Positions 15,701 through 63,712 of a stretch of DNA of 64,000 bases are shown here, piece by piece. Within the stretch, counting starts at the first letter, position 1, and every line of letters begins with the position of its first letter. This DNA comes from Telopea speciosissima (Eukaryota; Streptophyta; Magnoliopsida; Proteales; Proteaceae): positions 744,001 through 808,000 of the forward strand of contig NC_057923.1 of assembly GCF_018873765.1 (NCBI RefSeq), given 5' to 3'. The notes beneath the pieces are model-generated. The model worked only from the letters and a program-made list of their open reading frames with translations. It ran no database searches and was not told where the DNA came from. The position numbers and the translations under genes were made by a program.

Positions 15701-18700
15701 AAAACCATTGAAGGTCTGTTTGGGAAGCTGTGGAGAACATTGGGATGCACAATTCGATTCTCTGAGATCCCCCTCTGCAGATTGATCTTTAGAATGCACA
15801 GGATTAGGTCTTCCTTATTCTACAAGTCCTGGTTTGTGATCTAGAGTTGCATATTTGTTGAAAAACCCAGTTCCGTTGGGGTATTCCTCCGTGGACGTAG
15901 GCACTCTTTGGGCATTACTTTTATTTTCAGCATATAGTTGAAATGATTGTTGTGCAGAGTGGTGGGACAATGTCTGGTACCCAGCCACATTGTAGTGTTT
16001 GGTGGACGTGTTTGTGTGTGATTGGTAATTACACGACTGCCCTGGCCAATCTTGAACGCAATTGAGAAAGCGTCGCCAGTGCAGTATCTGTTAGAGATTG
16101 GAAGAAAATTTTGAGATCCACTGATTCACCCCCCTCTTAGTGGCACCTGGGATTCACACACGCGACAAATTTGTTGCAGTAATCTGCTGTAAGAGCTGTA
16201 TGATGTAGTACTGTAATTGAATAATCAAAACAGTACCAAAATAGGACCTTTCCTTAGAGAACAAGAACTCAGATTAGGGAGGAATCACATAGCATGAAAT
16301 TGGATGGTGAGAATGATATTAAACTCTATTTGAGTTCAACAAACACTGGAAAGAACAGTTGCTGAAATTCTAAAATTGTTCCAATGGTTGGATCAGTAAA
16401 TACAGACCAATCCTAGTTGAATTAGGAGAAGGGTATAACAGTAATTTCACACAACAGAATAGAAATTAGAGAACAGAGCAATCGATTTTGATAACAGAGT
16501 ATAAATCTCAGCGAGAACAGATTAGTAAAAGTATCAAATCGATTCACTCAACAAACTGCAGAAATTTAAGAATCTGAAATAAATGGTAGAATTAGAATTT
16601 CAGTATAACTCCAGATCAGCAGGTGTGATCTGCCTGAAATTCTGGTTGAACCCCTCTATTGCAAAGATTAACAGATCCTCCAAGTTTGAAGGTATTCTAA
16701 TGGCTGGATTGCTCTACTCAGAATTCATGCAAAAAAACACTTGCATATGAAGCCAGAATCAGATTAGGAGGTGCAGAAACAAAAACCAGAAATTACTTAC
16801 TTGAATCAATGGAGAAGATGGAAGGAAGAACAAATAGAAATTAAACACCTGGGCTCCATACCGCAAGGTGGTTTGATTTGATCAAACACCAACCTACCTT
16901 GATGCATACATGGGGTTCCTTGATCAAACACAAGGGATCTTCAATGGAGAAGAAGAGCAGCAAAACAACAACTTTATTTATCAAATTCGTACAATGCTTG
17001 CCCACTTAAAACCTTACATAGAAAACTCAAAACTAGACTCAAAACACTGAAAAGGAAAGGCCTAACCCAATCCTTAACTAATAAGGTATCCTAAATTGAC
17101 TAGGAAAATGAAATAATAAAGGAAACATCCTCAAAACATGACTGGACATATAGATTTCTAATCCAGCCCAACTAAAACACTTAACAGCAATTACTTAAAC
17201 TTAAATTGAACAACATTGAACCAGTTCAATTCGACTAATCCAAAACAACTTAATAGTAAACTAAGTCCTAATAATAGCAATTAATACCCTTAGTTTAGGC
17301 CCATTAAAGTGACCTATTACTTTGAAAACCCATGGGATCAAAGGCCCAACATGTATAGAACCCAACCCAAGGCTTATTTCCATTAAAATAACCCTATTTA
17401 GGTTTTCTAACTGCATCACCATAGCTCAGTAAGATACTAAGACTTGTACATGTGCTTTAACTTCTGGGGAAGGGGTAAATGTGTTTTGTTTCGTCTACAA
17501 GGTGTATGTCATTGATGATCTGCTTGCATATCACAAATGCTCTATGCAAATACATGTCTTATGTTACCAAGTGATGGTTTTAGTGGATATTGCCTCTGAT
17601 TTTACTTTCTTGAATAAACAGAGAAAAAGAGTAAAGTTCTTAGAAGAGAAGCCTCATCTCAAAGGCATTATCAACAGTATAGTTTTCATGCCCTGGGTTG
17701 ATGTCTGTTTCACCACGGGTGGGAGTGATCATGCTGTAATACTGTGGAGTGAGAAAGATGGTGAACAATTATGGAAACCAAAGGTGTTGCACCGGAGTCT
17801 TCATTCTTCCGCTGTCATGGGAGTTGCTGGGATGCAGCAAAAGCAGATTGTATTGTCTATAGGTGCAGACAAAAGAATCATTGGATATGATTTGCTGAGT
17901 GGACGAGCTGATTTCAAGCACCAAATAGAAAGTAAATGCATGGGTGTGCTGCCAAATCCAACTGACTTCAACCTTTACATGGTGCAGACAGGGTGAGTAA
18001 TAACATTGAAAGTCATGGTGCATTAGTTCAATAAGTTTGAATTTTGTTCCTGAATATCTCCTTTACTATTCATTGTATGAATGCCCTTTTTCCTATTAGG
18101 CTATTACTTTCCCCTATGCTCAGGATTATACGTACATACCCTGAACACCTATTATATTGGACTGCCTAGGATTCCAGTTTCAAGGGTGAACTAATGATGC
18201 AGGGGAGTTTCTCACGTACTCCCGTAGGAAGAAAGGCAAACACCAGGCCACCTAGTGGCCACGATTTCTAAAAGGGGAGCCTTTTCTCCCTTTGGCGACA
18301 TGAGGCAAGTTCAGGCCATCGCATGGGCCTTTGAGCTAGTTAGCTCTTTCTTTAAGGGATGGAAGAAACTAAGGAAGAAGAAATTAGGTGCTCTTATGGG
18401 GTTGTGAACATAATTGTAAATTGTGACATTTGAAAGAAGGTATAAGAAACAAATCGACTGCCATTCAAAATTCAATTCCCAATTGATATGATGTCAACCA
18501 CCTTTTTATATAATGATCTGAGAAATAATAACCTTTACAGACTAACCAATGGCAGCGGGTAATGTTTTTTAGACAATTGTATGAAGAAATAGTAGAGGAA
18601 ACCCTAACCGCAGCAAGGAGAAACCGTGAGATTGTCTACAACAAATGAAAAAGAGTACGTGTGGGATTCCAAACCCAACTCAAAGCTGCTTGTATTCTGC

Positions 18701-26895: not shown

Positions 26896-29800
26896 TGCAC
26901 CATTAGAACTTCAAATGATGATATCTCCCTCATCTGACCTTCGTTTGAGACGATTCAACTTGCAGAATTTTCGCCTTGGAGAGCTCTAAGTATAATAAAT
27001 GAGGAAAGATATGCATTGTAGCCTTCACCTATGTCGAAATTGCAAAAATTCACGCAGGGTTATTTTAGTAATTGCATCAGCACCGTTGGCACTTTCAAAG
27101 TGCCTATGAGCTGATCTGGGTTTTGTAGTGGGCATGAGAATTGTAGTTGGACGAGTCCTCTTCGAAACGCAATTGGAATCGTGCAATTTTTATGTTTGTC
27201 GGCGAAGTTGCAACGATTCTCGTTTGGTACCTTAAAATTAAGGGCATTTTCTGGGTGCTAGTGCACCATCAGAATTTCAAATGATGATATCTCCCTCATC
27301 CGACCTCTGTTTGAGACGATTCAACTTGCATAATTTTCGTCTTGAAGAGCTCTAAGTATAAAATATGAGAAAAGAGGTGGGTTGTAGCCTTCACCCGTGC
27401 CAAAATCACAAAAATCCATGTAGGGTTATTTTAGTAATTGCATCAGATTCGTCGGCACTTTTGGGGTGCCTATGAGCTGATCTGGGTTTTGTACTGCACG
27501 TGAGCATTGTAGTTCATCGAGTCCTTTCGAAATGCAATAGGAATCGTGCATTTCTGACGTTTGACGGCGAAGTTATAGCGATTCTCGTTTGGCACCTCAA
27601 AATTAAGGATATTTTGTGGGTGATCGTGCACCATTAGAACTTTAAATGATGATATCTCCCTCATCCGACCTCCATTCGAGACAATTCAACTTACAGAATT
27701 TTCGTCTTGGAGAGATCTAAGTATAATAAATTAGAAAAGAGGTGGGTTGTAGCCTTCACTTGTGTCAAAAATCGTAAAAATCTGCATAGGGTTATTTTAG
27801 TAAAATTAAGGGCATTTTGTGGGTGCTCTTGCACCATCAGAACTTCAAATGATGATATCTCCCTCATCCGATCTCCGTTTGAGACGATTAGCCTTACAAA
27901 ATTTTTGTCTTGGAGAGATCTAAGTGTAATAAATGAGAAAAGAGGTGTGTTGTAGCCTTCACCAGTGCCGAAATTGCAAAAATCCGTGTAGGGTTGTTTT
28001 AGTAATTGCAACAGATTCGTCGGCATTTTCGGAGTGCCTATGAGCTGATCTGAGTTTCGTATTGCACATGAGAACTGTAGTTTGTCAAGTCCTCTTCGAA
28101 ACGCAATAGGAATTGTACATTTCTGAAGTTTGACGGCGAAGTTACAGAATTCTCGTTTTGCACTTCAAAATTAAGGGGCATTTTAAGGGTGCTCATGCAC
28201 CATCAGAACTTCAAATGATGATATCTCCTCATCCGAACTCCGTTTGAGACGATTCGACTTGCAGAATTTTCATCTTGGAGAGATCTAATTATCATATAGG
28301 AGAAAAGAGATGGGTTGTAGCCTTCACCTGTGCCAAAATCTCAAAAATCCGTGCAGGGTTATTTTAGTAATTGCATCAGATTCGTTGGTACTTTCGAAGT
28401 GCCTATGAGCTGATCTGGGTTTTGTACTGCAAATGAGAATTGTAGTTCGTCGAGTCCTCTTCGAAACGCAATTAGAATCGTGCATTTTTTACTTTTGACG
28501 ACAAAGTTACAGTGATTCTCGTTTCGCACCTCAAAATTAAGGGCATTTTGTGGGTGCTCGTGCACCATCAGAACTTCAAATGATGACATCTCCCTCATCT
28601 GATCTCCATTTGAGACGACTCAACTTACAAAATTTTCATCTTGGAATGATATAAGTATAATAAATGAGAAAAGCGGTGGGTGGTATCCTTCACCTGTGCC
28701 GAAATCGTAAAAATCAGCGCAGGGTTATTTTAGTAATTGCATCAGATTCGTTGGCACTTTTGGAGTGCCTATGAGCTGATCTGGGTTTCGTACTGCACAT
28801 GAGAATTGTAATTCGTCGAGTCCTCTTCGAAACACAACTGGAATCGTGCATTTCTGACATTTGACGAAAAAGTTACAGTGATTCTCGTTTGGTACCTCCA
28901 AATTAAGGGCATTTTATGGGTGCTCGTGCACCATCAGAACTTCAAATGAAGATATCTCCCTAATCTGACTTCCGTTTGAGGCGATTCAACTTGCTTAATT
29001 TTAGCCTTGGAGACATTTAGGTATAATAAAAGAGAAAAGAGGTGGGTTGCAGCTTTCACCTGTGCTGAAATCGTAAAAATCCATGTAGGGTTATTTTAGT
29101 AATTATATTAAATTCATCAGCCCTTTCGGATTGCCTTTGAGCTGATCTGGGTTTCATACTGCACATGAGAATTGTAGTTCGTCGAGTCCTCTTCGAAGCG
29201 CTACTGGAATCATGCATTTATGACATTTGACGTCGAAGTTACAGCGATTCTCATTTGGTACCTCAAAATTAGTGGCATTTTGTGGGTGCACGTGCATCAT
29301 CAAAACTTCCAACAAAGATATCTCCGTAATCCGACTTCCGTTTGAAACGATTCAACTTGAAGAATTTTTTTCATGGAGAGATCTACGTATAATAAATGAG
29401 AAAAGATGTGGGTTGTAGCCTTCACCTGTGCCAAAATCGTAAAAATCCGCGCAGGGTTATTTTAATAATTGTGTCAGATTCGTCGGCACTTTCGGATTGC
29501 CTATGAACTGATCTGGATTTTTTACTGCACATGAGAATTGTAGTTTGTCGAGTCCTATTCGAAACGCAATTGAAATTGTGCATTTTTGAAGTTTGACGGC
29601 AAAGTTACAGCGATTCTCGTTTTGCACTTCAAAATTAAGGGGCATTTTATGGGTGCTCGTGCACCATAGAAACTTCAAATGATGATATCTCCCTCATCCG
29701 ACCCTCGTTTAAGATGATTCAACTTGCAATTTTTTTATCTTGGAGAGCTCTAAGTATAATAAATGAGAAAAGAGGTGGGTTGTAGCCTTCACTTGAAACG

Positions 29801-32800
29801 AAATCACAAAAATCTGCACATGGTTATTTTAGTAAATGCATCAGATTCGTCGACACTTTCGGAGTACCTATGAGATGATCTGGGTTTGTATTGCACATGA
29901 GAATTGTAGTTCGTCGAGTCCACTTTGAAACACAATTGGATTCTTGCATTTTTTACTTTTGACGGCGAAGTTACAACGATTCTCGTTTTGCAATTCAAAA
30001 TTAAGGGCATTTTATGGGTGCTCGTGCACCATCAGAATTTCAAATGATGATATCTCCCTCATCCGACCTTCGTTTGAGACGATTCAACTTGCAATTTTCG
30101 TCTTGAAGAGCTCTAAGTATAATAAATGAGAAATGATGTGCGTTGTAGCCTTCACCTATGCCGAAATTGCGTAAAACTCCATGTAGGGTTATTTTAGTAA
30201 TTATATCAGATTCGTCGGCCCTTTCGGAGTGTCTTTGAGATGATCTGAGTTTTGTACTGCACATGACAATTGTAGTTCGTTGAATCCTCTTCGAAATACA
30301 ATTGGAATCGTGCATTTCTGAAGTTTGACGGCGAAGTTACAGCGATTCTCGTTTTGCACTTCAAAATTAATGGCATTTTCTGGGTGCTCGTACACCATCA
30401 GAACTTCAAATGTTGATCTCCCTCATATGACCTCCATTTGAGACGATTCAACTTGCATAATTTTTGTCTTGAAAAGCTCTAATAAATAAGAAAAGTGGTT
30501 GGTTTTATCCTTCACCTGTGCCAAAATCACAAAAATCCACACAGGATTATTTTAGTAATTGAATTAGATTCGTCGGCACTTTTGGAGTGCCTATGAGCTG
30601 ATCCGGGTTTCATACTGGACATGAGAATTTTAGTTTGTCGAGTACTTTTTGAAACACAATTGGAATTGTGCATTTTTTTACATTTGACGGCGAAGTTACA
30701 GGGATTCTCGTTTTGCACTTCAAAATTAAGGGCATTTTGTGGGTGCTCGTACACCATTAGAACTTCAAATGATGATATCTCCCATCTGACCTCCGTTTGA
30801 GACGATTCAACTTGAAGAATTTTTGTCTTGGAGAGATCTAAGTATAATACATGAGAAAAGAGGTGGGTTGTAGCCCTCACCTATGCCAAAATCGCAAAAA
30901 TCTACGCAGGGTTATTTTAGTAAATGCATCAGATTCGTTGGTACTTTCAGAGTACCTATGACTTGATTTTGGTTTCGTACTGCACATGGGAATTGTAGTT
31001 CGTCGAGTCCACTTAGAAACACAATTATAATCGTGCATTTTTTACGTTTTACGACGAAGTAACAACGACTCTCGTTTTGCATTTCAAAATTAAGGGAATT
31101 TTATGGGTGCTCGTGCACCATCAGAACTTCAAATGATGATATCTCCCTCATCCGACATCCGTTTGAGACGATTCAACTTGCTGAATTTTTTGTTTTGGAG
31201 AGGTCTAAGTATAAAAAATGAGAAAAGATGTGGGTTGTAGCCTTCACCTATGCCGAAATTGCAAAAATACGTGCAGGGTTATTTTAGTAATTACATCAGA
31301 TTCGTCAGCACTTTCGGAGTGCCTATGTGTTGATCTGGGTTTCATACTTGACATGAGAATTGTAGTTCATAGAATTCTCTTCGGAATGCAATTGGAATCG
31401 TGCATTTTTGACATTTGACGGCAAAGTTACCGCGATTCTTGTTTGGCACCTCAAAATTAAGGGCATTTTGTGGGTGCTCGTGCACCATCAGAACTTCAAA
31501 TGATGATATCTCCCTAATTCGACCTCCGTTTGAGACGAATTCAATTTGCAGAATTTTCGTCTTGGGGAGATCTAAGTCTAATAAAGGAGGAAAGAGGTGG
31601 GTTGTAGCCTTCACCTGTGTCAAAATTTCAAAACTTCGTATAGGGTTATTTTAGTAATTGCATCAGATTCATCGGCACTTTCGGAGTGCCTATGAGCTCA
31701 TCTCAATTTTGTACTGCACATGAGAATTGTAGTTCGTCGAGTCCTCCTCGAAGCCCAATTGGAGTCGTGCATTTCTGACTTTTGACGGCGAAGTTACAAC
31801 GATTCTCGTTTTGCACTTCAAAATTAAGAGCATTTTCTGGGTGCTCCTGTACCATCAGAACTTCAAATGATGATATCTCCCCCATACGACCTCCGTGAGA
31901 CGATTCAACTTGCAGAATTTTTGTCTTGGAGAGCTCTAAGTATAATAAATGAGAAAAGAGGTTAGTTTTAGCCTTCACCTGTGCCAAAATCTCAAAAATC
32001 CACATAGGGTTATTTTAGTAATTGCATCAGATTCATCGGCACTTTCAGAATGCCTATGAGATGATCTGGGTTTCATATTGGACATGAGAATTGTAGTTCA
32101 TCGAGTACTCTTCGAAACGCAATTGGAATCGTGCTTTTCTGACTTTTGACGGCGAAGTTATTGGGATTCTCATTTTGCACTTCAAAATTAAGGGCATTTT
32201 ATGGGTGCTCGTGCACTAGCAAAACTTCAAATGATGATATCTCCCTCATCCGACCTCCGTTTGAGACAATTCAACTTGTAGAATTTTTGTTTTGGAGAAT
32301 TATAGGTATAATAAATGAGAAAAGAGGTGGGTTGTAGCCTTCACCTGTGCTGAAATCGCAAAAATCCATGTAGGGTTATTTTAGTAATTGCATCAAATTC
32401 GTCGACACTTTCGGAGTGCCTATGAGCTGATCTGGGTTTTGTACAACACATGAAAATTTTAGTTCATCGAGTCATCTTCGAAACACAATTGGAATCGTGC
32501 ATTTCTGACGTTTGATGGTGCAGTTACAACGATTCTCGTTTTGCACTTCAAAATTAAGGGCATTTTATGGGTACTCGTGCACCATCAGAACTTCAAATGA
32601 AGATATCTCGCTCATCTGACCTCCATTTGAGACGATTCAACTTGCATAATTTTCATCTTGGAGAGCTCTAAGTATAATAAATGAGAAAAGAGGTGGGTTT
32701 TAGCCTTCATCTGTGCCGAAATTGCAAAAATCCGCACAAGGTTATTTTAGTAATTACATCAGATTCGTAAGCATTTTCGCAGTGCCTATGAGCAGATATG

Positions 32801-35620
32801 GGTTTCGTACTGCACATGAGAATTTTAGTTCATCGAGTCCTCTTCAAAACGCAATTAGAATCGTGCATTTTTGTCTTTTGACTACGAAGTTACAACGATT
32901 CTCGTTTGACACCTCAAAATTAAAGGCATTTTGTGGGTGCTCGTGCACCATCAGAACTTCAAATGATGATATCTCCCTCATTCGACCTCCATTTGAGATG
33001 ATTCAACTTACAGAATTTGTCTTGGAGAGTTCTACGTATAATAAATGAGAAAAGAGGTGGGTTGTAGCCTTCACCTATGCTAAAATCGTAAAAATCCGTG
33101 CATAATTAATTTAAAAATTACATTAGATTCGTCGACACTTTCGGTGTGCCTATGAGCTGATCTAGGTTTCGTACTGTGCATGAGAACAGTAGTTCGTCAA
33201 GTCCTCTTTGAGATGCAATGGGAATTGTACATTTTTGACTTTTGACGGCAAAGTTACAGTGATTCTCGTTTGGCACCTCAAAATTAAGGGCATTTTGTGG
33301 GTGGTTGTGCACCATCAGAACTTCAAATGAAGATATCTCCGTAATCCGACCTTCATTTGAGACGATTCAACTTACAGAATTTTTGTATTGGAGAGTTCTA
33401 AGTATAATAAATGAGAAAAGATTTGGGTTGTATTCTTCACCTATGCCGAAATTGAAAAAAATTCATGTAGGGTTATTTTAATAATTGTGTCAGATTCATC
33501 GGCACTTTCGGAGTGCCTATGAGCTGATCTGGGGTTCATTCTGCACATAAGAATTGTAGTTCGTCGAGTCCTCTTTAAAACGCAATTGGAATCGTGCATT
33601 TCTGACTTTTGGCGGCGATGTTTTAACGATTCTTATTTGGCACCTCAAAATTAAGGGCATTTTGTGGGTGCTCGTGCACCATCTGAACTTCAATTGAGGA
33701 TATCTCCCTCTTCCAACTTCCATTTGAGATGATTCAACTTGTAAAATTGTTGTCTTGGAAAGATCTAATTATAATAAATGAGAACAGAGGTGGGTTGTAG
33801 CCTTCACCTGTGCCAAAGGCGCAAAAATCCGCGTAGGGTTATTTTAGTAATTGAATAAGATTCGTTGGCACTTTAAGAGTGCTTATGAGATGATCTGGGT
33901 TTCGTACTGCACATGAGAATTATAGTTTGTCGAGTCCTCTTCAAAATACAACTAGAATCATGCATTTCAGACGTTTGACGACGAAGTTACAATGATTCTC
34001 GTTTGGCACCTCAAAATTAAGGGCATTTTATGGGTGCTCGTGCACCATCAGAACTTCAAATGATGATTACTCCCTCATCCGACCTCCGTTTGAGACGATT
34101 CAATTTGCAGAATTTTCTTCTTGGAGAGATCTAAGTATAATAAATGAGGAAAGAGGTGGGTTGTAGCCTTCACCTGTGCCGAAATTGTAAAACTCCGCGC
34201 AGGGTTATTTTATTTATTGCTTCAGATTCGTCAGCACTTTCGGAGTGTCTATGAGCTCATCCGGGTTTTGTACTACACATGAGAATTGTAGTTCATCGAA
34301 TCCTCTTCGAAATGCAATTGGAATCATGCATTTCTGATGTTTGACGGTGAAGTTACAGCGATTCTCGTGTTGCACTTCAAAATAAAGGGCATTTTCTGGG
34401 TGCTCGGGCACCAGCAGAACTTCAAATGATGATATCTCCCTCATCCGGCCTCCGTTTGAGACTATTTAAATTGCAGAATTTTCATCTTGAAGAGCTCTAA
34501 GTATAATAAATGAGAAAAGAGGTGCGTTGTAGTCGTCACCTATACCAAAATCGTAAAAAAAAATCCACGTAGGGTTATTTTAGTAATTGCATCAGATTCG
34601 TCGGCACTTTCGGAGTGCCTATAAATGAGAAAAGAGTTGTGTTATAGCTTTCACCTGCGCCAAAATTGCAAAAATCCACGAAGGGTTATTTTAGTAATTA
34701 CATCAGATTCGTCGGCACTTTCGGAGTGCCTATGACCTGATCTTGAGAATTGTAGTTCAACGAGTACTCTTCGAAATGCAATTGGAACCGTGCATTTCTG
34801 ACGTTCGAAGGCGAAGTTACAGGGATTCTTGTATTGCACTTCAAAATTAGGGCATTTTGTGGGTGCACGTGCACCATCTGAACTTCAAATGAAGATATCT
34901 CCCTAATCCGACCTCCGTTTGTGATGATTCAACTTAAAAATTTTTCGTATTGGAGAGATCTAAGTATAATAAATGAGAAAAGATGTGGGTTGTAGTCTTC
35001 ACCTGTGCCGAAATTGCAAAAATCCATGCAGGGTTATTTTAGTAATTGTGTCAGATTCATCGGCACTTTTGGAGTACCTATGAGCTGACCTGGGTTTCAT
35101 ACTGCATATGAGAATTGTAGTTCATTGAGTCCTCTTTGAAACACAATTGGAATCGTGCATTTCTGACGTTTGGCGGCGAAGTTATAACGATTCTCGTTTG
35201 GCACCTCAAAATTAAGGGCATTTTGTGAGTGCTCGTGCACCATATGAACTTCAAATGATGATATCTCCCCCATCCGACCTCCATTTGAGATGATTCAACT
35301 TGCAAATTTTTTTTCTTGGAGAGCTCTAAGTATAATAAATGAGAACAGAGGTAGCTTATAGCGTTCACCTGTGCCAAAAGCGCTAAAATCTGTGTAGGGT
35401 TATTTTAGTAATTGCATCAGATTTGTTGGCACTTTCAGAGTGCCTATGAGCTGATCTCGGTTTCGTAGTGCACATGAGAACTGTAGTTCGTCGAGTCCTT
35501 TTTGAAACGCAACTGGAATCGTACATTTCAAACGTTTGACGACGAAGTTACATCGATTCTCGTTTGGCACCTCAAAATTTAGGGCATTTTGTCAGTGCTC
35601 GTGCACCATCAGAACTTTAA
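26896..35620 (+). repeat. Satellite array, about 365-bp monomer, left block (about 24 copies)
   Basis: A landmark CACCATCAGAACTTCAAATG recurs at 27264, 27629, 27832, 28198, 28563, 28929 and on to about 35603, spaced 365-366 bp apart except where monomers are deleted. Other fixed words are GGGTTATTTTAGTAATTGCA, CGGCACTTTCGGAGTGCCTA, GTACTGCACATGAGAATTG and TATAATAAATGAGAAAAGAG. Monomers differ from one another by scattered substitutions. Open minus-strand frames of 60-117 residues recur, but monomer length is not a multiple of three. Confidence 0.95.
35617..35620. other. Target duplication TTAA (left)
   Basis: TTAA precedes the left terminal inverted repeat and is repeated after the right one at 41255-41258. 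Read as a 3-bp TAA/TTA duplication it fits PIF/Harbinger. Confidence 0.7.
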
Positions 35621-35651
35621 GGGCGTGTTTGGTTCGGTGAACCAATTGGTG
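35621..35651 (+). repeat. Left terminal inverted repeat
   Basis: Identical over 31 bp to the reverse complement of 41224-41254. A further 20 bp (35642-35661) recur inverted at 41181-41200, so the right end carries a small insertion/duplication relative to the left. Confidence 0.95.
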
Positions 35652-36273
35652 CTGCACCAATAGATTCATGATTCCGAATTAAAAAAACCGTTTGGTTCAA
35701 AATGATGGTGAACTGATCCGGGTTCATGAATCTACCTGATTCACATTTTTTCATGTAAATGTGAATTATATTTGGGTCTACCTATAGAGGTGGACCCATA
35801 TTTGATTCAAGGAAAATAAGCCCTAGTATAAATACCCCTCTTATTTTGTGTACCAATCTTGATTCCTACCCATCGAGCTTAAGAACGAAAGTCGCGATCA
35901 TGTTCGTCGTTTTGAAGGGAGAAGAAGGTCAAGAAAGAAAGCATCGACTCTGCTCGCGTTGTAGAAGGGAGAAGAAGGCGAAGGGAGAAGAAGCTCGTCG
36001 TTGCCGAAGGGAGAAGAAGGTCATTTTGCCGAAGGAAGAAGAAGGCGAAGGGAGAAGAAGGCCGTGGAACCTGCAACTGGAGAAGCAGGCAAAGGGAGAA
36101 AAAGGCTTTTTCTTTCGATCAACATGTGATTTCTCAAGGGTTTGAAGTTGAGAAAAAGGCTTTTTCTTGCAATCAAGTGGGGAAGAGGAGACTTGCAACT
36201 CCATAGGAGATTCAAGGTGATTTCTCTCATCTCTCCCATCTCTTTCATCTCTCTCTCGCTATCTCTTTCTCTG

Positions 36274-36276
<3 letters not shown>

Positions 36277-36339
<63 letters not shown>
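36277..36339. repeat. (CT)n microsatellite, 63 bp
   Basis: Uninterrupted CT repeat inside the Harbinger-like element, in a CT-rich stretch that may be an ancient 5' UTR. The long Ser/Leu and Arg/Glu frames here are repeat artefacts. Confidence 0.95.
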
Positions 36340-36344
<5 letters not shown>

Positions 36345-36399
36345 TCAAGAATGTCTCTCTCTCTGTTCGCAACCCTTACAACTGAAACCATTTACCTGC

Positions 36400-37853
36400 G
36401 ATTTTGCAAACCTAGGTCCCCCTCTCGCCCTCTCCCTCTCTCTCCCAATTTTTACAAAATTGATTTCGGGTTTAGGATCTGAAATCTATTCTAAATTCTA
36501 AAATGTCGGATGCCTATTTGCACCCTCTCGTTCGAGTTACGATGGGAACAGGAAAACCTAGACATGATGGGGGTCTGATGTCTCTTCTCAGTGGAAGTCT
36601 GAGGAACCCCATTTTTAGGTTGGCATATTTTAGACTTTGAAAATGTTGTTCTATTTGTCATTTGTAAGGGAAGGTATAAGTGTAGACTTTAGATTAAAAA
36701 AGGACCTTGTTTCGATTTGGTTCATCCTCTGTGATTGAGTGGGGATTATTGTTGCTACAATTGCAAAGCAGCTGCGTAATAGCCTCATATTCTTTCAAAA
36801 ATTTTCCAATTTGAAGATTTTGGGAGATGGATGGGAATGTTTGTACATTTTACGGCCTGTGTATGTAAATAAAAGTTGATTAACTGCAGCTCTGTCTTTT
36901 CGATTTTCTATACCCTGCTTTAAATTTGTTAGAATTCATGGAATATAGCTTCATTTTGATCCTCAATTTCCATAGGTTTGCTTGTGTTAATTAAAAATTG
37001 TAATTGAAATTTATATGCAATCTTTCCTAACTACTCATCATCATCACTTACTTGGCCAAATAACAACCAGTTTATCTTCATCACTAATGGGTAGGAATGA
37101 CTTATTTAAGTGGTGAGTCAATGGCATGGACAGATCCATGCATGTCATCAGCTTATAACCCAATTCAAAACGAACAAAAATGTCGTTTGTAATACTTGTG
37201 TGGCTGATGAGATGGGATTTTCAGATTTGAAGAGGGGGCTCAGCTTTGGGTTTCACTGTTCAAGCACTGCAATATTATAGATAAGGTGGGCCACATTGCC
37301 TCCATTATTGTGTGGCTGATGAGATGGATTTCTCCTCTCAATCTCCTGTGTCCCCAAATAATGGTAGTTAGGTTACTATTTCTGGCTTAGTATAAGTGGG
37401 ATTATTATGATGGACTTCTTCAAGTTCCCTACTAATTTTGGGAAGTAAGTTTCAGTCTGCACATCTCTTTTCTACCCTTCCATCAATTAGGTTAGATTTG
37501 GACAAGGAGAACATCTACATCAAATAAATGAGTGTTGGAAATTTGGAATTGAATTCATGAGTCTGATTCTGAATGCCTCCTTTAACCCCCACGAATGTCT
37601 AGCTAAAAGTTTAAGCATTTGGGATTTTGGCATAGTAATTCTTTATGAAAGGGAAAGAAACTAGACTAAAGAAGAAATAATTATATGATTGATTTGATTG
37701 AGCTTATTGAGCAAGAGAGAGAGATGAGAGAGAGATGTGGTTCTTTGTCTCCATTGCTTGAATGGTAGATGTAGGAAGGGTTGGTTGATGAGATCTTGAC
37801 GTTGTTCGATCCATGTTAGAGATTTGGGTCTGAACCTAAAATTTCAAAATTAT
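36400..37853. other. Interior of Harbinger-like element, unassigned
   Basis: AT-rich sequence without a recognised coding fragment. Could be intron or flanking sequence of captured genes or the original element. Confidence 0.3.
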
Positions 37854-38048
37854 CAACCCTCGACTGTTTCGCCTCCTGCGAAAGAACGACTTCTCCAACC
37901 TTCGACTGGTTCGTCTTCTTCGAAGGGAAGACCTCTCAACCCTCCATTGTTTCGTCTCCTAGGAAGGGAAGACATCTCCAACCCTCAACTGGTTCGTCTC
38001 CTTCGAAGGGAAGACCTCTCAACCCTAGACTGATTCATCTTCTGCAAC
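37854..38048 (+). repeat. Minisatellite, about 42-bp unit, about 4.5 copies
   Basis: Successive units begin CAACCCTCGACTG, CAACCTTCGACTGG, CAACCCTCCATTG, CAACCCTCAACTGG and CAACCCTAGACTG, each followed by a TTCGTCTCCT...GAAGGGAAGAC stretch. It lies inside the Harbinger-like element. Confidence 0.85.
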
Positions 38049-38192
38049 GGTAAGATCGTTATCGCTTTCTGCCTCTCTCATTATCTATCTCCATCTCTGT
38101 ATCTCTCTCTCTCTCGTCTTCTCTAGCTTTGGTTTTGTAAACCTAGGGTTTAACCACAGCAGATTCTGAGTTTTAAAGAAATTTATCAAACC

Positions 38193-38401
38193 CTATTTCG
38201 GGTATTTTCGATCTCTGTAATAAACCAATGTCTTCTTCATCCCAACTGCTCTCTTGCGAGATTGAACTGTCCTATCCTTCCCTATGGCCTTCCAATATCC
38301 AGCTTTGGTTGCTTGATTAGTTCTCGACCCATTTGGGTATTTTCGATCTCTTGGACTAAAGAAATACCACTCCATATCTTTACTTGGTAGATATGACTTA
38401 T
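38193..38401 (-). pseudogene. NAC transcription-factor exon 2 fragment (captured)
   Basis: The minus strand reads [63 protein letters not shown]: the NAC DNA-binding domain, subdomains C to D, as in NAC45/NAC86/NAC28-like proteins. The intron acceptor TTACAG just upstream of the exon (38402-38407) is intact, so genomic DNA, not cDNA, was the source. After VYYR the normal GRAP motif is replaced by a repeat of an internal stretch (DRKYP) and a stop. The activation domain and exon 1 are missing. Cannot make a functional factor. Confidence 0.9.
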
Positions 38402-38435
38402 CTGTAACATATATATGAAATATTAGTACACTAAC

Positions 38436-38998
38436 AAATTAATTATGAATAGGTTAATATATGATGGGACTGAGATTTCTAGTATATATTGGCCCAATCC
38501 TACATTCTCTGTATTTCAGAATGGGAGAACAAACTATAACAGTAGCAGAATAGCCATTCTTGATGATATGGGTAGTTTTCTATCCAGTGATTTACTGCGA
38601 TTTTCTGCTTCTGATATGGGGACTGGGATTAGGAGGAGACTTGTGATGGATTATGATGGTAATCTGAGACTCTATAGCATGAACGAGACAACCATGTCTT
38701 GGATTTTATCTTGGGAAGCTGTCTCAGACCAGTGCAATGTGCACGAGCTGTGTGGCAGTGGAATTTGTGTCTATACACCGAAACCCCAATGTTCATGTCC
38801 CCCAGGTTATGAGATAACTGACCCACATGACTGGAACAAAGGTTGCAAGCCTAAGTTCAACCAGATCTGCAATCAAACTTAGAAAGTAAATTTATGAAAA
38901 AGCCACAAACAGATTACTATGGATTTGACCTTGCTTTCCAACAACCTGTATCATTTGAAACTTGCAAGAACCTCTGCTTGAATAGTTGTGAGGCTAAG
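38436..38998 (+). pseudogene. S-domain (G-type lectin) receptor-like kinase ectodomain fragment (captured)
   Basis: The frame from 38445 reads RLIYDGTEISSIYWPNPTFS, RRRLVMDYDGNLRLYS, then an S-locus glycoprotein domain and EGF-like part (CNVHELCGSGICVYT, CSCPPGYEITDPHDWNKGCK). It meets TAG at 38880-38882. A frame two bases over then gives KPQTDYYGFDLAFQQPVSFE and CKNLCLNSCEAK, the start of the PAN/apple domain. A nonsense codon plus a 1-base deletion break it. The B-lectin domain, transmembrane segment and kinase are absent. It resembles the ZmPK1-like group of single-exon kinases. Confidence 0.9.
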
Positions 38999-39412
38999 AA
39001 AAATACTGTTAGTAAGTTAATTTTTGGTGCTATTCCCTGTTGATCTGATTGCTTTTTATTTGAGCTGTTAGTCCAGATTAATGAGAGGTTTAAGAGAAGT
39101 ATACAACTCATTGGATTGCTTTTCTATGAGGTTTCTATTTTGATTATTTAGTTTTATATTTTCTGTTTGGTACTTCTTCATGTTCCCACTTCCCATAAGG
39201 TCCATCTTTATCTTTGTCACGGTTCATTTTTTTTTCTGTGGATAATGTAGATCTTCATTATATGATGCTATTCAATGATTTTCTATTTAAGATCACTCAA
39301 TACAAGTAGATGGACCTTATGGGAAGTGGGAACATGACAAAGCCACGAATTGGTTTTCTGAGTGTTAAAAAAAGGAAAAATCAAATTTCTAGGTATTTTT
39401 TTGGGGGTGGGG

Positions 39413-39436
39413 CAGGGGGGGGGGGGAGGGGTTTCT
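39413..39436. repeat. G-rich run
   Basis: GGGGCAGGGGGGGGGGGAGGGG-like tract within the Harbinger-like element; a possible G-quadruplex former. Confidence 0.7.
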
Positions 39437-39563
39437 GGTCCCATATTCTTGGAGTGTAGAGCCTTCACATGGGTTTTTTGTCCCATATTCATGGATTTTT
39501 CTGATGCTTTACTACTACTGAATCATATAATTCTGGTGGCAACAATAAGATGATGATATGCAG

Positions 39564-39720
39564 TGAAGTGATCTTAGAGTTGATTGAGCTTGGTTTAATG
39601 TGTACACAGTACTCTCCTTCTTCAAGACCATCCATGATTGATGTAGCCCATGAAATGGGTAGCCTCAAACAGTATCTCTCCAACCCTTTTTCCCCCCTAA
39701 ACATTGAAGAAGTAATTTAA
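39564..39720 (+). pseudogene. Receptor-kinase C-terminal fragment, subdomain XI (captured)
   Basis: After an acceptor-like TATGCAG the frame reads EVILELIELGLMCTQYSP, SSRPSMIDVAHEMGSLKQYL, SNPFSPLNIEEVI and a stop at 39718-39720. The CTQ...RPSM motif is protein-kinase subdomain XI with its conserved Arg. The wording differs from the S-domain kinase group, so this is probably a separate donor gene. Nothing else of a kinase lies nearby. Confidence 0.8.
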
Positions 39721-40025
39721 ATTAGACTTTGATCTTTCTTGAGAGCAACTCCTTTTGCAAGTTGTTTTTCTGTTACAGCTGATTGTAAGGTTGATTGTAG
39801 TAGTTGCTGCCTTAGTTTCTACATCATCCATATATCAGTTTTAGAGCCTCATGTGACTATGTGAAGGGAACATCTTAAAAAGTAGACTTGTATTACTTAT
39901 TATAGATTCATTAACATTCCTTTGATGCTGTCCCACCACTTCCTTTTATGCTGCCCCATTTACTTCTTATTAGTTTTCACTAGGCCATTAACAGGTTATA
40001 TATATGTATTTTGGTTTCCAGATTG

Positions 40026-40784
40026 ATGGACTCCGAAAACCCCTCTCAGTCTAAGACAAGCGACATTGCAACATGGACTAATGAAATATCACACTTTTTC
40101 CTAGAGTGTCTCTCACAGCAACATAGACATGGGAGAAGTGGAGACAATGGCCTCAAGAGAGAGCAATGGCAAGCAATCTCACTCAAGATAAAAGATCGCT
40201 TTAACACAACCTATGAATGGGAGCAATGCAAAAACCACTATAGGATATGGAAAGCTAGACTGAAAGCATTGTCTGACTTACAAAACAATTCTGGATTAGG
40301 TTGGAATGCGATAGAGATGAGATTTGATGCACCACAGCATGTTTGGGCTGAGTTTAAAGTACAATTGTTTTATTTCATATGAATAATTCAATTTAGAAAA
40401 TACCATTTTAGTCATTCTTGTTTCTCTTGTTCTTGTTTGTAGAAAAAGGAGCAAAAGTATTGGAGAAATACTAAAGTACTTCCCATTTCCTTAGTAGTTG
40501 CAGTGTGGTTAGGCAACGAAATTGCAAATGGGAATGCTTCAACCACCCCAGCACAGGCTGCTGCTGCAGTTGCTGGACTTGATACCTTAGTCCTTAGTGA
40601 TGATGGGGAGAGTCAAAATGAAGAAACTACAACTCACACTCCTATTGGAAGTTCCACTCGTAGACGTGGTAGACCTCAATCAACAGGCACAAGTAAGCCA
40701 CAGAAGAAGAAGAAGAAGCAAGGGAGTTGGAGGACGTTCTTGATGCTGTCAAAAAACTTGACCTTAACAAGTGATGATGTCTAG
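40026..40784 (+). pseudogene. Myb/SANT-like ORF1 of PIF/Harbinger element, two exons, degraded
   Basis: Exon 1 (40026-40358) encodes MDSENPSQSKTSDIATWTNE, then a Myb/SANT-like domain with spaced Trp residues (ATWTNEI, REQWQAI, HYRIWKARL, LGWNAIEMRF, VWAEFK). A donor at 40359 and acceptor TTGTTTGTAG (40433-40442) join it in phase 0 to exon 2 (from 40443), reading KKEQKYWRNTKVLP, GNEIANGNASTTPAQ and a basic RRRGRPQ...KKKKK tail. The C-terminus is shifted by one base (ELEDVLDAVKKLDLNK is in another frame). In PIF/Harbinger this protein binds DNA and helps the transposase. Probably inactive. Confidence 0.78.
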
Positions 40785-40984
40785 GAGGAGAGAATATGAT
40801 ATCACAATAGTATAACAACTTATTTAAATATATATTTTATTCATGTAATGAATGACAAGGACAACTGTTGGATAAGAACTCTATTAATTCCTATTTTATT
40901 TAAGTTTAAACATTAGTTGAAATGGTTAATTCTTCATAATTATTTAATTTTCTAGCCATAGAGTAGCCAATCTGATGGTATGAT

Positions 40985-41165
40985 CTATCTGAACCAAACA
41001 GTTTTTCATACAGATTCAATTTGAATCCAACTGACAAAATCAGGGAAACCAAACAGTTTTTTATATAAATCCAAATAGAATCCAATTGACAGACTCAGGG
41101 TAACCAAATAGTTTCTCAGGATGATTCAACTAACAGACTCAGGGTAACCAAACAGTTTAATCTAT
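40985..41165. repeat. Subterminal tandem repeats of Harbinger-like element
   Basis: AACCAAACAGTTTTT or close variants occur four times, and CAGACTCAGGGTAACCAAA twice, near the right end. Subterminal repeats of this kind are common transposase-binding arrays. Confidence 0.6.
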
Positions 41166-41223
41166 CAGGACAATGGATCCATTGGTGCAGCACCAATTGG
41201 GTCAACACCAACATCAATGCAAC

Positions 41224-41254
41224 CACCAATTGGTTCACCGAACCAAACACGCCC
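41224..41254 (-). repeat. Right terminal inverted repeat
   Basis: Perfect inverted copy of 35621-35651, followed by TTAA. Confidence 0.95.
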
Positions 41255-41258
41255 TTAA

Positions 41259-43945
41259 GTACAATAAATGAGAAAAGAGGTGGCTTGTATCCGTCACTTG
41301 TTCCAAAATCACAAAAATCCGTGTAGGGTTATTTTAGTAATTGCACCAAATTTTTTGGCACTTTTGGAGTACCTATGAGCTGATATGAGTTTTGTACTGC
41401 ACATGAGAATTGTAGTTCGTCGAGTCTTCTTCGAAACACAATTGGAATCATGCAAATCTGATGTTTGACAGCGAAGTTACAACGATTCTCGTTTGGCACC
41501 TCAAAATTAAGGGCATGTTGTGCGTGCTCGTACACCATCAGAACTTCAAATGATGATATCTCCCTCATCCGGCCGTCGTTTGAGACGTTTCAACTTTCCG
41601 AATTCTCCTCTTGGAGAGATCTAAATATAATAAATGAGAAAAGAGGTGAGTTGTAGCCTTCACTTGTGTCAAAATCACAAAAATCCGTGCAGGATTACTT
41701 TAGTAATTGTATCAGATTCGTCGGCATGACTGGAGTGCCTATGAGCTGATCTGGGTTTTATACTGGGCATGAGAATTATAGTTCATCGAGTCCTTTTTGA
41801 AACACAATTGGAATCGTGCATTTCTAACATTTGACGGCGAAGTTACAGCAATTCTCGTTTTGCACTTCAAAATTAAGGGGCATTTTATGCGTGCTTGTGC
41901 ACCATCAGAACTTCAAATGATGATATCTCCCTCATCCGACCTCTGTTTGAGACGATTGAACTTGCAAAATTTTCATCTTGGAGAGCTCTAAGTATAATAA
42001 ATGAGAAAGATGTGTGTTGTAGCTTTCACCTATGCAAAAGTCGTAAAAATCCGCTCTGGATTATTTTAGTAATTTCATCAGATTTGTCGGCACTTTTGGA
42101 GTGCCTATGAGCTGATCTGGGTTTTGTACTGGACATGAGAATTGTAGTTCATTGTGTCCTCTTCGAAACGCAATTGGAATCGTGCATTTTTTAAGTTTGA
42201 CGACAAAGTTACAGCGATTCTCTTTTTGCACTTCAAAATTAAGGACATTTTATGGGTGCTCGTGCACCATCAGAACTTGAAATGATGATATCTCCCTCAT
42301 CCGACCTCCCTTTGAGACGATTCAACTTGTAGAATTTTCCTCTTGGAGAGCTCTAATTATAATAAATGAGAAAAGAGGAGGGTCGTAGCCTGCACCTCTG
42401 CCAAAATTGCAAAAATCCATGTAGGGTTATTTTAGTAATTGCATCAAATTCATCGGCACTTTTGGAGTGCCTATGAGCTGATCTGGGTTTCGTATTGTAC
42501 ATAAGAATTATAGTTCATCGAGTCCTCTTTGAAACACAATTGGAATCGTGCATTTCTAATATTTGACGGCGTAGTTACAACAATTCTCGTTTTGCACTTT
42601 AAAATTAAGGGCATTTTATGGGTGCTCGTGCACCATGAGAACTTCAAATGATGATATCTTCCTCATCCGACCTCCGTTTGAGACGATTCAACTTGCAGAA
42701 TTTTTGTCTTGGAGAGCTCTGAGTATAATAAATGAGAAAAGAGGTGGGTTATAACCTTCACCTTTGCCAAAATTGTAAAAATCTGCACAGGGTTATTTTA
42801 GTAAATGCATTAGATTTGTTGGCACTTTCGGAGTGCCTATGAGCAGATCTGGGTTTCGTACTGCATATGAGAGTTGTAGTTTGTCGAGTCTTCTTTGAAA
42901 CGCAATTGAAATCGTGCATTTCTGATGTTTGACGGCGAAGTTACAGTGATTCTCAATTTGCACTTCAAAATTAAGGGGCATTTTCTGGATATGCACCATC
43001 AGAATTTCAAATGATGATATCTCCCTCATCCGACCTTCATTTGAGACGATTCAGTTGCAGAATTTTTGTCTTGGAGAGCTCTAAGTATAATAAATGAGAA
43101 AAATGGTGGGTTGTAGCCTTCACCTGTGCCGAAATCGCAAAAATTCATGCAGGGTTATTTTTGTAAATGCATCAGATTCTTTGGCACTTTCGGAGTGCCT
43201 ATGAGCTGATCTGGGTTTTGTACTGCACATGAGAATTGTAGTTCGTCGATTCCTCTTCGAAACGGAATTGGAATCATGCATTTATATAGTTTGACGGCGA
43301 AGTTACAACGATTCTCGTTTTGCACGTCAAAATTAAGGGCATTTTGTGGGTGCTCGTGCACCATCAGAACTTCAAATGTTGATACCTTCCTCATCCAACC
43401 TCCGTTTGAGACGTTTCAACTTGCAAAATTTCATCTTGAAGAGATCTAAGTATACTAAATGAGAAAAGAAGTGGGTTGTAGTCTTCGCCTGTGCCGAAAT
43501 CTCTAAAATCCGCGCGGCGTTATTTTAGTAAATGCATCAGATTCGTCGACAATTTCGGAGTACCTATGAGCTGATCTGAGTTTCGTACTGCACATGAGAA
43601 TTGTAGTTCGTCAAGTCCATTTCGAAACACAATTGGAATCGTGCATTTCTAGAGTTTGACGGTGAAGTTACAGTGATTCTTGTTTTGCACTTCAAAATTA
43701 AGGGTATTTTATGGGTGCTCGTGCACCATTAGAACTTCAAATGATGATATCTACCTCATTTGACCTCAGTTTGAGACGATTCAACTAGTAGAATTTTCAT
43801 CTTGGAGAGCATTAGGTATAATAAATGAGAAAAGAGGTGTGTTGTAGCCTTCACCTGTGCCAAAATCGCAAAAATCCATGTAGGTTTATTTTAGTAATTG
43901 CATCAGAAAAGCGCTGGAGTGCCTATGAGCTGATCTGGGTTTCAG
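41259..43945 (+). repeat. Satellite array, about 365-bp monomer, right block (about 7 copies)
   Basis: Same monomer and orientation as the left block: the landmark recurs near 41533, 41899, 42266, 42630, 42986, 43351 and 43717. The last monomer is disrupted near 43908 (AAAAGCGCT replaces the expected words) and homology stops at GATCTGGGTTTC. Confidence 0.95.
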
Positions 43946-48090: not shown

Positions 48091-48668
48091 TAATTGATCA
48101 TCCTCCACACATATTATAACTTCAAAGTAGTACTTGAAAAGAATGGTGGCAAGTAGAATGGCAACAAAATTTTCTAGCAAGGATTTTAGCATTCTCTATG
48201 AAATTCTACCTGTCAAAAAACAAAAACAAAAACAAAAACAAAAAAAAAAAATCCTTGGTGCAAGCCCTATCTATCATCGGGCTGCTGAAAAACACGGTTC
48301 AAATTTAAAGCCAAGATCAGTTTTACACTACTAAACTCATTTCTGCTTCTGTTTATCATTGAAGAGCTCTACATTTCTTCAGAACCAGAGAGCCTTATAT
48401 GTGCTTGTTACCCAAAAAATAAGGGGCTGAAAGGTCATAGGTCTATATACTTCGGAAAGTATACATGTTAATAATATCATGAATCATATGTATCCCTCAG
48501 TACCACAGCCAAATCATCAACAGTGATCAGTCCACTACTCTTATCCACTTGGTGATCATCATAGGGACGCAGGATCAAATACTACAACAAATTAAGATAA
48601 TGCTTACACTGAAGAAAACTAAGACATTCACACAACAGGCACCCTTCTTAAGGCCACTTCAGTTCAGT
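48091..48668 (-). repeat. Tandem duplication, copy 1 (snoRNA unit)
   Basis: Starts TAATTGATCATCCTCCACAC and ends GCCACTTCAGTTCAGT. Repeated with few changes at 48669-49272. Contains one clear box C/D snoRNA and, on the minus strand, hairpin-forming words (CTTGG...CCAAG; GTAGAAT...ATTCTAC). Confidence 0.9.
48493..48567 (-). ncRNA. Box C/D snoRNA, copy 1 (25S guide)
   Basis: Minus strand: stem TCCC, C box ATGATGA (48562-48556), D' box CTGA, C' box TGATGA, D box CTGA (48500-48497), closing stem GGGA. The element before the D box, TTGGCTGTGGT, is complementary to ACCACAGCCAA of 25S rRNA; the fifth nucleotide from the D box points to an A for 2'-O-methylation. All four boxes and the stem are canonical. 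The sequence before D' (AGAGTAGTGGA) has no rRNA target I can name. Confidence 0.82.
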
Positions 48669-49272
48669 TAATTGATCATCCTCCACACATATTATAACTT
48701 CAAAGTAGTTTCTTAAAAAGAATGGTGGCAAGTAGAATGGCAACAAAGTTTTCTAGCAAGGATTTTAGCATTCTCTATGAAATTCAACCCGTCAGACAAC
48801 AAAAAAAAAAAAAAAATCTTGGTGCAAACTCTATCAATCATTGGGCTGCTGCTGAAAAACACGGTTCAAATTTAGAGCCAAGATCAGTTGTACACTACTA
48901 AACTCATTTCTGCTTCTGTTTATCAATGAAGAACTCTACATTTCTTCAGAACCAGAGACAGCCTTATATGTGCTTGTTACCAAAAAATCAAGGGGCTGAA
49001 ACTAAAATAGATAGGTCATAGGTCTATATACTTTGGAAAGTATACATGTCAGTGTATCATTATTACACGTTAATAATATCATGAATCATATGTATCCCTC
49101 AGTACCACAGCCAACTCATCAACAGTGATCAGTCTACTACTTTTATCCACTTGGTGATCATCATAGGGACGCAGGATCAAATACTACAACACATTAAGAT
49201 AATGCTTAAGCTGAAAAAAACCTAATACAATCACACAAGAAGCACCCTTCTTAAGGCCACTTCAGTTCAGTT
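48669..49272 (-). repeat. Tandem duplication, copy 2 (snoRNA unit)
   Basis: Second copy of the unit, slightly longer because of a small insertion near 49050. The snoRNA boxes are kept, while surrounding sequence has drifted. Confidence 0.9.
49095..49169 (-). ncRNA. Box C/D snoRNA, copy 2 (25S guide)
   Basis: Paralogue of the snoRNA at 48493 within the tandem duplication. C box ATGATGA, D box CTGA and TCCC/GGGA stem are identical; the D-box guide TTGGCTGTGGT is unchanged, while flanking guide bases differ slightly (AGTTGGC instead of ATTTGGC). Confidence 0.82.
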
Positions 49273-62099: not shown

Positions 62100-62562
62100 G
62101 CTTTGAGGGCTAGAGGAAACAAGGGAGACAGAAGAGAGACCCCAGGAGCCTGTTCCTTGGGGTATCACTGCAAGAAGAGGGACGGGCTGATGATAACTTC
62201 ACCTTAATATCAAAGGAAATGGAATCCCAAATTTGCTGGTAAGATCTAGAATTGGAGGTCCATTTCCTGATATTGCGCTCCATCCAAATATGGTTCAAAG
62301 TTGCACAAAAAGCTAGCTTTCCAATAGTATCACATAATGAGCGGCCAGCAAAAGTCATGTCGATCCAAATCCATTCACAGGAGAAAGGAAGAATTCTTCT
62401 AGAGGCTGGCCAACACTTTAGTAAGATGCCTTTCCAGATCACTGCCGTTGTAGGACACTCAAAGAATAGGTGATCAGTGTCTTCCACATTGTTCCAAAAG
62501 AGGCAGCAATAGGGGGAGACAGGGATGTGGCGATGCAGAAGGAAGTTAGATGTGTATAGAGT
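62100..62562 (-). pseudogene. LINE RT zinc-binding (zf-RVT) C-terminal fragment
   Basis: The minus strand reads SNFLLHRHIPVSPYCCLFWN, then DTDHLFFECPTTAVIWKGIL and LNHIWMERNIRKWTS: the zf-RVT domain at the C-terminal end of plant L1 polyproteins. The RT core is not adjacent, and the copia LTR at 62563 cuts it on the upstream side. Confidence 0.85.
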
Positions 62563-62836
62563 TGTAATAAGGGTAGTTCTGGTACTAGTCTTGTTACTAG
62601 TTACCTTATTATGTAATTCTGTATTTTCTTCTTTTTTACCTTTTACCTCCCTAGGGAGTGAGTTGTAATACTTTAATTTATGACTTTGAAGTAATATAGA
62701 TGTGTGGAGATCTCACTCACACACACAACCATTACAACCGAAATATTACTCTTCCATTCTCTTGCTCTCTTCTTCTTCTCTTCCTCTCCACCATCTTCCT
62801 CCTCTTCTCTTACCTACATCCTTAAACTAAAATCCA
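62563..62836 (+). mobile_element. 5' LTR of a Ty1/copia element
   Basis: Begins TGTAATAAGGGTAGTTCTGG directly after LINE sequence and ends shortly before the primer site. About 274 bp with a CT-rich 3' half. The partner LTR is outside the window, so the limits cannot be checked by comparison. Confidence 0.65.
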
Positions 62837-62839
62837 ACT

Positions 62840-62852
62840 TGGTATCAGAGCC
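62840..62852 (+). other. Primer binding site (tRNA-iMet)
   Basis: TGGTATCAGAGCC just after the LTR; places the element on the plus strand. Confidence 0.88.
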
Positions 62853-63712
62853 AAAGGTTTGAGAGTCGTATCATCTCTATTTTCCTCATCTTTTTCCCTC
62901 TCTTTGAGATCCTAGAACTCAAGGGATTTCAAAGAAGAGGTTCCTATGTAAATCCTTTGCAAAAGAGGTATGAAGTAGGTTCTCTATAACCTATTTAGGT
63001 GATTGAGGATGATTCTTGAGCTACTTTGGAGCTCCATTGAAGCTGTTTTGAAGTGAACCAAACAGCAGTTAGGGTTTCCGCCAGCTCAAGAGTAAAGGCC
63101 ATGTTTCTCTCATTCTCGGCATGTTTTTGGAGCTTGGAATAGCTCAACAGAATCGTATAAGGGTCCTCTATATGCTCCAAGTGTGCCTCCTTGATGAATG
63201 AAGGTACTGTCCAAGCATAGCTCAGTTTTGTGGATCTGCTCTTCTGCCCAGATTTCCGCCAGTTGCAGGTTGAATCCATGGATCAGGTCCATTTCAGCAT
63301 GGGTTTGGCTGTTGGACCAGCCCACTAGGATCGTATAAGGACCCTAGTTATAGTCTTCGTGTTCTCCTTTGATGGATGAGACTCCTCTTTGAGTTCTACT
63401 CAGTTTCGTGGTGTTGTTCTCTGCCCAGGTAAACCCGATAATGCTGCATTTTCCTTGTTCTTGCATTTAGGGTATATTGGACCTCTTGTTTGATTGAAAA
63501 GTGATGATGAATATCTGCATTTGAAATATTGGGGCTTGTTTAAGCTGTTTTATCTCTTGAAGAGTGTGGGAGTGAAGCTTTGTTGTGCTGGAATCTTTGT
63601 CTTTAAGCTGGCAGCTCTGTTTTTGTGTGTTGGGATAATTTCCTTGGGTTGAGTGTGCACTCCCCTTGCTGGTTGTTACCTGTTTATGGTCAAGTACTCT
63701 TTCCCATACACT
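62853..63712 (+). other. Copia leader with degenerate tandem repeat
   Basis: The 860-bp untranslated leader contains two diverged units (about 63080-63250 and 63260-63430), each with GATCGTATAAGG-like and CAGTTTYGTGG...CTCTGCCCAG words. No frame supported. Confidence 0.5.

Follow-up and report, generated by a model that had tools for sequence, protein, structure and literature searches.

A very probable Pack-type PIF/Harbinger transposon in Telopea speciosissima that carries pieces of at least three host genes

Grapevine PIF elements that encode a transposase and also carry transduplicated host sequence were published in 2008 (PMC2528002), Pack-PIFs were described in maize and rice in 2022 (PMC8903248), and multicopy Pack-TIRs were described in animals in 2021 together with the FoSTeST model (PMC8277862), whose application to plant Pack-MULEs is called worth exploring. 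The way in which plant transposons with terminal inverted repeats (TIRs) take up gene pieces is still debated, with neighbour fusion on one side (PMC8903248) and gap filling or template switching on the other (PMC8277862). We analyzed a 64,000-nucleotide stretch of the Telopea speciosissima genome (NC_057923.1, C8:744001-808000 in our contig numbering), hereafter the window, and searched the 823-Mb assembly that holds it. The element at positions 35621-41254 of the window is very probably a non-autonomous (Pack-type) PIF/Harbinger transposon holding scraps of at least three host genes. The process itself, the uptake and reshuffling of gene fragments by transposons, is known; this element is a well-documented case of it, and we claim no first report.

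A first-pass annotation made from the letters of the window had already read the element as Pack-type PIF/Harbinger with capture at the DNA level. Copies elsewhere in the genome, the transposase of a relative and apparent parent loci for three fragments all support this reading. The perfect 31-bp inverted ends that it described (35621-35651, plus strand, and 41224-41254, minus strand) were recovered by self-complement comparison and by an end search of the window; they match at 31 of 31 positions, and exact complementarity extends to 35 nt (35617-35651 versus 41224-41258, 100 %, TTAA included). Similar ends are present on two transposase-encoding copies, L044 and L055. No third copy of the 31-bp end was found within the window, bar one match with 9 mismatches.

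The left-end region has at least 41 matches in the genome including the window's own (40 of 102 candidates were scored). We fetched 20 family loci with flanking sequence and scanned ten open frames from L043, L044, L053, L054 and L055 with Pfam. L044, an 8,839-bp copy on C2 with TTA on both sides, contains a 410-aa frame without interruption that matches DDE_Tnp_4 (7.3e-21), and L055 contains a transposase-related frame broken by a stop (DDE_Tnp_4, 3.4e-17) as well as a Myb-type open reading frame 1 (ORF1). The DDE_Tnp_4 transposases of these two copies identify the family as PIF/Harbinger; the matching TAA or TTA duplications of most other delimited copies and the Myb-type ORF1 of the window copy and L055 speak for this as well. 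The search for further copies with the same ends that had been proposed at first pass returned relatives, the transposase-encoding L044 among them. Pfam recognized no domain at E up to 0.01 in the stop-masked interiors of five other copies, scanned in six frames for L050, L054 and L058 and in three for L041 and L059.

Seven copies of 2.8-3.2 kb (L040, L041, L042, L045, L047, L048 and L051) contain most of the left 2.2 kb of the window copy plus its right end, while L043 and L044 have large blocks in common with it, in the same order from left end to right end. L055 is without a match to window positions 36082-40047, and only about 235 bp separate those of its transposase-side and ORF1-side blocks that are shared with L044. 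At L049 (220-3498, reverse orientation) two family copies of about 1.55 kb follow one another head to tail with a gap of about 150 bp. They are 95 % alike, both have TTA duplications, and the pair is a candidate for neighbour fusion.

Across six stop-masked frames of the window element, Pfam at E up to 0.1 reports only Myb_DNA-bind_3, NAM and S_locus_glycop. The first of these (PF12776, 4.5e-14) marks exon 1 of ORF1 with its Myb/SANT-like domain (40026-40358, plus strand; limits set by eye from splice motifs). Comparison with L043, L044 and L055 reveals a truncated exon 2 at 40443-40718 on the plus strand, and about 1.2 kb of those three copies is missing from the window at 40718/40719. The Myb/SANT ORF1 remnant noted earlier is thus genuine and is truncated at 40718.

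A NAC gene fragment occupies 38213-38450 on the minus strand (NAM, minus strand, 2.9e-19) and comprises part of exon 2, a splice acceptor near 38401/38402 and the adjoining intron. It is 94 % identical, intron sequence included, to a NAC gene on C9 (best match C9:63606447-63606704). The NAC fragment of the first-pass annotation is hereby located, and its argument that a retained intron acceptor points to DNA-level capture is supported, the C9 locus matching across the acceptor. At the left NAC break CTCT (4 bp) is common to the element and the C9 gene. Together with the 13 preceding bases it forms a 17-bp filler (38200-38216), which repeats NAC exon sequence 135 bp away (38335-38351) without a difference. 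A 17-bp direct repeat arose in none of 1000 shuffles of the region, in which the longest was 15 bp. The filler agrees with the NAC piece of the element itself at 17 of 17 positions and with the C9 gene at 16 of 17, so the new strand may have been the template of the slip, or the C9 sequence may have changed since. At the other end the NAC intron runs directly into the S-domain exon, with AG (2 bp) shared.

The adjoining piece (38451-38991, plus strand) derives from an S-domain receptor kinase and covers the S-locus glycoprotein domain (S_locus_glycop, plus strand, 2.2e-11) and the start of the PAN region, as the first-pass annotation had said of a plus-strand S-domain kinase fragment. Positions 38180-39050 used as query gave 22 genome matches, the window's own among them, and the S-domain piece is 96, 93 and 90 % identical to three neighbouring genes on C1. 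The nearest of these (best match C1:20637979-20638523) has an 831-aa frame with B_lectin, S_locus_glycop, PAN_2 and kinase domains. Substitutions at codon positions 1/2/3 number 9/3/6 in the window and 6/12/7 in L044; this lack of third-position excess, together with a 1-bp deletion private to the window piece, makes the captured pieces look non-coding.

At least three copies at different places include parts of this S-domain sequence, namely the window copy, L044 (TTA/TTA) and L043 (TAA/TAA, 63 bp retained), which indicates mobilization after capture. In the window copy the match to the parent is unbroken between 38451 and 38991; the L044 piece starts at the equivalent of 38733, continues about 470 bp beyond the point where the window piece stops, and is followed by the transposase. 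A deletion junction at 38989-38992 accounts for about 2.96 kb of L044, namely the rest of the S-domain fragment and the transposase, that is absent from the window, and the bases shared at the breakpoints are TGCAA in L044 and TGA in the window. Where one of the two copies is broken, the other follows the parent without a gap, so each has lost a part that its relative retained. They look like products of complementary deletions in descendants of a single ancestor that had both a transposase and the captures. Both pieces lack the same 3 bases of all three C1 genes, and they diverge from the nearest parent by 3.3 % (window) and 3.4 % (L044), compared to 1.5 % from each other. The complementary breaks, the common 3-base loss and the uncaptured L055 are most simply explained by capture, then spread, then deletions. 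Capture most likely took place in a transposase-encoding ancestor and not in the transposase-less window copy.

The end of a third gene was found with positions 38980-40030 as query (32 genome matches). Protein searches give no Pfam kinase match here, the PDB hits being to BAK1 with E of 0.067 and 0.019, and the identity is settled by a 94 % DNA match of 39510-39740 (plus strand) to a locus on C3 annotated by its domains as a leucine-rich repeat (LRR) receptor kinase. The best match, C3:24312029-24312258, identifies the piece as the 3' end of the gene with the stop codon and the start of the 3' region, and it confirms the second plus-strand kinase fragment that had been predicted. The intact parents that the first-pass annotation had suggested looking for also have candidates, longer versions of all three genes being present on C9, C1 and C3. 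Two further plus-strand pieces fill part of the interval. Positions 38991-39129 match C10:34191452-34191590 at 93 % and, more weakly, a C7 sequence at 75 %; positions 39128-39412 are partly matched by C3:66291509-66291905, at 100 % over 42 bp and 76 % over 199 columns. The second of these contains a foldback with perfect 30-bp arms (39178-39207 and 39308-39337). As DNA, the stretch 39166-39349 folds far better than its shuffles (z -9.83) and could feed small RNAs. We also considered it as a microRNA and rejected this, the Rfam matches to MIR7533, MIR396 and MIR5380 lying far under gathering scores.

These observations suggest how the element may have been built. A break or stalled copying inside an element that encoded transposase and ORF1 and resembled L055 would have started repair synthesis, which would have copied short stretches of the NAC gene, the S-domain receptor kinase, the LRR receptor kinase and, probably, two more loci, changing template at overlaps of a few bases and slipping back once within the NAC exon. 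The loaded element would then have transposed, with at least three copies keeping part of the S-domain piece, and the copies would have lost different parts: the transposase and the end of ORF1 in the window copy, the NAC piece and part of ORF1 in L044. The window copy could presumably move today only with transposase supplied in trans by a relative. In its full form, a single template-switch chain through five loci on four contigs (C9, C1, C10 and C3 twice) that loaded a transposase-encoding element, with Pack-type copies arising later by loss of the transposase, this scenario is held tentatively, and we would not yet favour it over its negation.

Several points weigh against our reading of the element and its history, the unequal half-sites and the satellite phase discussed below among them. 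Template switching is read from the junctions rather than observed, and overlaps are established at two junctions, the left NAC break and the NAC/S-domain joint. The filler does not fully match C9 and may stem from a slip on the new strand, from a nearer gene or from a later local duplication. The LRR-kinase tail is 5.2 % divergent from its best match, compared to 3.3-3.8 % for the other two gene pieces, so that the pieces may have come in more than one event; pieces 38991-39129 and 39128-39412 may be repeats rather than genes. Two other blocks shared by the window copy and L044 differ by 2.4-3.4 %, above the 1.5 % of the S-domain piece. The window copy itself shows no transposase in six stop-masked frames searched with Pfam at E up to 0.1.

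Neighbour fusion, in which neighbouring insertions fuse and trap the DNA between them without template switching (Gisby and Catoni 2022), has been inferred for Pack-TYPE elements, with a maize Pack-PIF example in PMC8903248, and the close pair of family copies at L049 speaks for it. For the window element we regard it as unlikely. The parents lie on three contigs, the NAC and S-domain pieces abut with no transposon sequence between them and no internal ends, 17 bp of filler were recopied, and none of the 22 matches to 38180-39050 has the pieces adjacent to one another and bracketed by two copies. The short overlaps and the filler fit a switch of template in the course of repair synthesis better. 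End-like sequence (17 bases, up to 3 mismatches) was absent from stretches of about 3 kb at six parent or source loci (L062, L063, L066, L075, L078 and L080). The first-pass annotation had itself raised the alternative of two separate miniature inverted-repeat transposable elements (MITEs) bracketing an unrelated stretch; a clean target duplication is indeed not present, but inner ends were not found in the window, and the extensive blocks that L044 and L043 have in common with the element keep their order from end to end, which leaves two independent MITEs highly improbable. We consider it just as far-fetched that the NAC/kinase stretch is an ancestral host locus to which transposon ends were added later, an outcome the first-pass annotation had named as fatal to its reading. 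Nothing was found in its favour: all three genes exist in longer form at other places, each on a contig of its own, and the NAC piece ends once within an exon and once within an intron, where it is joined directly to the middle of an S-domain exon.

The target site raises a more serious alternative, namely that the two ends belong to two insertions of the same family at different satellite positions, later joined by recombination. TTAA is literally present on both sides as had been noted, but it does not look like the family's usual target duplication, because the half-sites of the window copy differ on comparison with family copies: TAA on the left (35618-35620) and TTA on the right (41255-41257). 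Among the other delimited family copies, 15 of 18 have a matching TAA or TTA outside their ends, the mismatched ones being L054, L056 and L059 (L046, L053 and L057, where the stretch has no right end, were left out and L049 was counted as two copies). The satellite DNA reported on both flanks is there, as an array of a 366-bp satellite with monomers on average 84 % alike, at 26896-35620 on the left and 41256-43943 on the right. On a consensus built from 24 regular monomers, the left array ends at position 26 and the right one begins at position 99, so that positions 27-98 are missing exactly at the element and the flanks are 72-75 bp out of phase. Judged against this consensus the flanks are not two halves of one intact monomer, and satellite on both sides together with TTAA does not prove one clean insertion, the use to which the first-pass annotation had put it. 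Given the phase shift and the unequal half-sites against the family pattern, we do not take TTAA at the window copy as a proven target duplication. A genome search for the joined 26-bp empty site, allowing up to 3 mismatches, gave no match; it had no positive control, and its reversed control matched once.

Other observations speak against such a chimera. Among 31 monomers the left insertion position reads TAA in 1 and the right position reads TAA in 24, and the window's satellite does not occur at the 20 family loci within the sequence fetched. A single insertion with a 4-bp TTAA duplication would look alike if the monomer had been short by about 75 bp beforehand or through loss, and L041, one of the 15 matching copies, ends in GCCT and can likewise be read as flanked by TTAA, supposing that it has lost its last base. 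We therefore consider a chimeric origin of the ends possible but somewhat doubtful. The register of the satellite is also broken at two other places in the array, by units of 463 bp (34400-34862) and 203 bp (27620-27822).

The left 2.2 kb of the element (35621-37831, plus strand), mostly common to the non-autonomous copies of about 3 kb, is CT-rich, leader-like and without a known domain, and a TATA-like box at 35827-35834 (plus strand) may be a promoter. The right-end block (40719-41254, plus strand), recognized by comparison with family copies, contains subterminal AACCAAACAGTTT-type repeats. A candidate leader duplication (36340-36520 versus 38100-38260) was rejected, the match covering 15 columns only and being equalled in 2 of 500 shuffles. 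No relative was found in public viral contigs, and 31 stretches of bacterial genome contigs with a 17-base match were taken as chance. Elsewhere in the window, minus-strand frames with RVT_1 and zf-RVT at 4545-5243 and 62113-62712 are LINE-like (long interspersed nuclear element), and a plus-strand WD40-like frame at 17433-17993 has matches under the Pfam cut-offs. Long direct repeats lie about 580 bp apart at 48091-48751. An identical 18-base stretch with TGGTATCAGAGC occurs at 9319-9336 and 62839-62856 and resembles an initiator-Met tRNA primer site of long terminal repeat (LTR) retrotransposons.

The value of this case lies in an unusually clear junction record with all pieces in one genome: because loaded copies, an uncaptured transposase copy and the best-matching parents are present together, the junctions can be read base by base. 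The Pack-type element seems to have arisen secondarily from a loaded transposase-encoding element. Elements of this class would be missed as Pack-TYPE by a pipeline that calls every transposase match autonomous, following the definition in PMC8903248.

Among the closest described systems is Pifvine-3 of grapevine (PMC2528002), likewise a PIF element with mostly TAA/TTA duplications, a transposase and ORF1, and a long extra region that matches host exons and introns, sometimes in several copies. The likeness is by description and not by sequence; the present analysis adds best-matching parent loci, junction overlaps, a recopied filler and copies with complementary deletions, and in L044 the transposase has captured pieces to its left and right. 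The Pack-PIFs of maize and rice (PMC8903248) resemble the window copy in having PIF ends, no transposase and host coding pieces inside. Zm-Pack-PIF cluster 18 has a mean length of 535 bp and pieces of 163 and 58 bp, compatible with neighbour fusion, whereas the window element is 5.6 kb long, keeps part of ORF1, draws on at least three source loci and speaks for template switching. None of the terms template switch, gap repair, filler, microhomology, SDSA (synthesis-dependent strand annealing) or double-strand break occurs in the text of PMC8903248. FoSTeST (PMC8277862) was developed for animal systems, unlike the plant element studied here, and shares with our proposal the switching at short overlaps followed by transposition of the loaded element.

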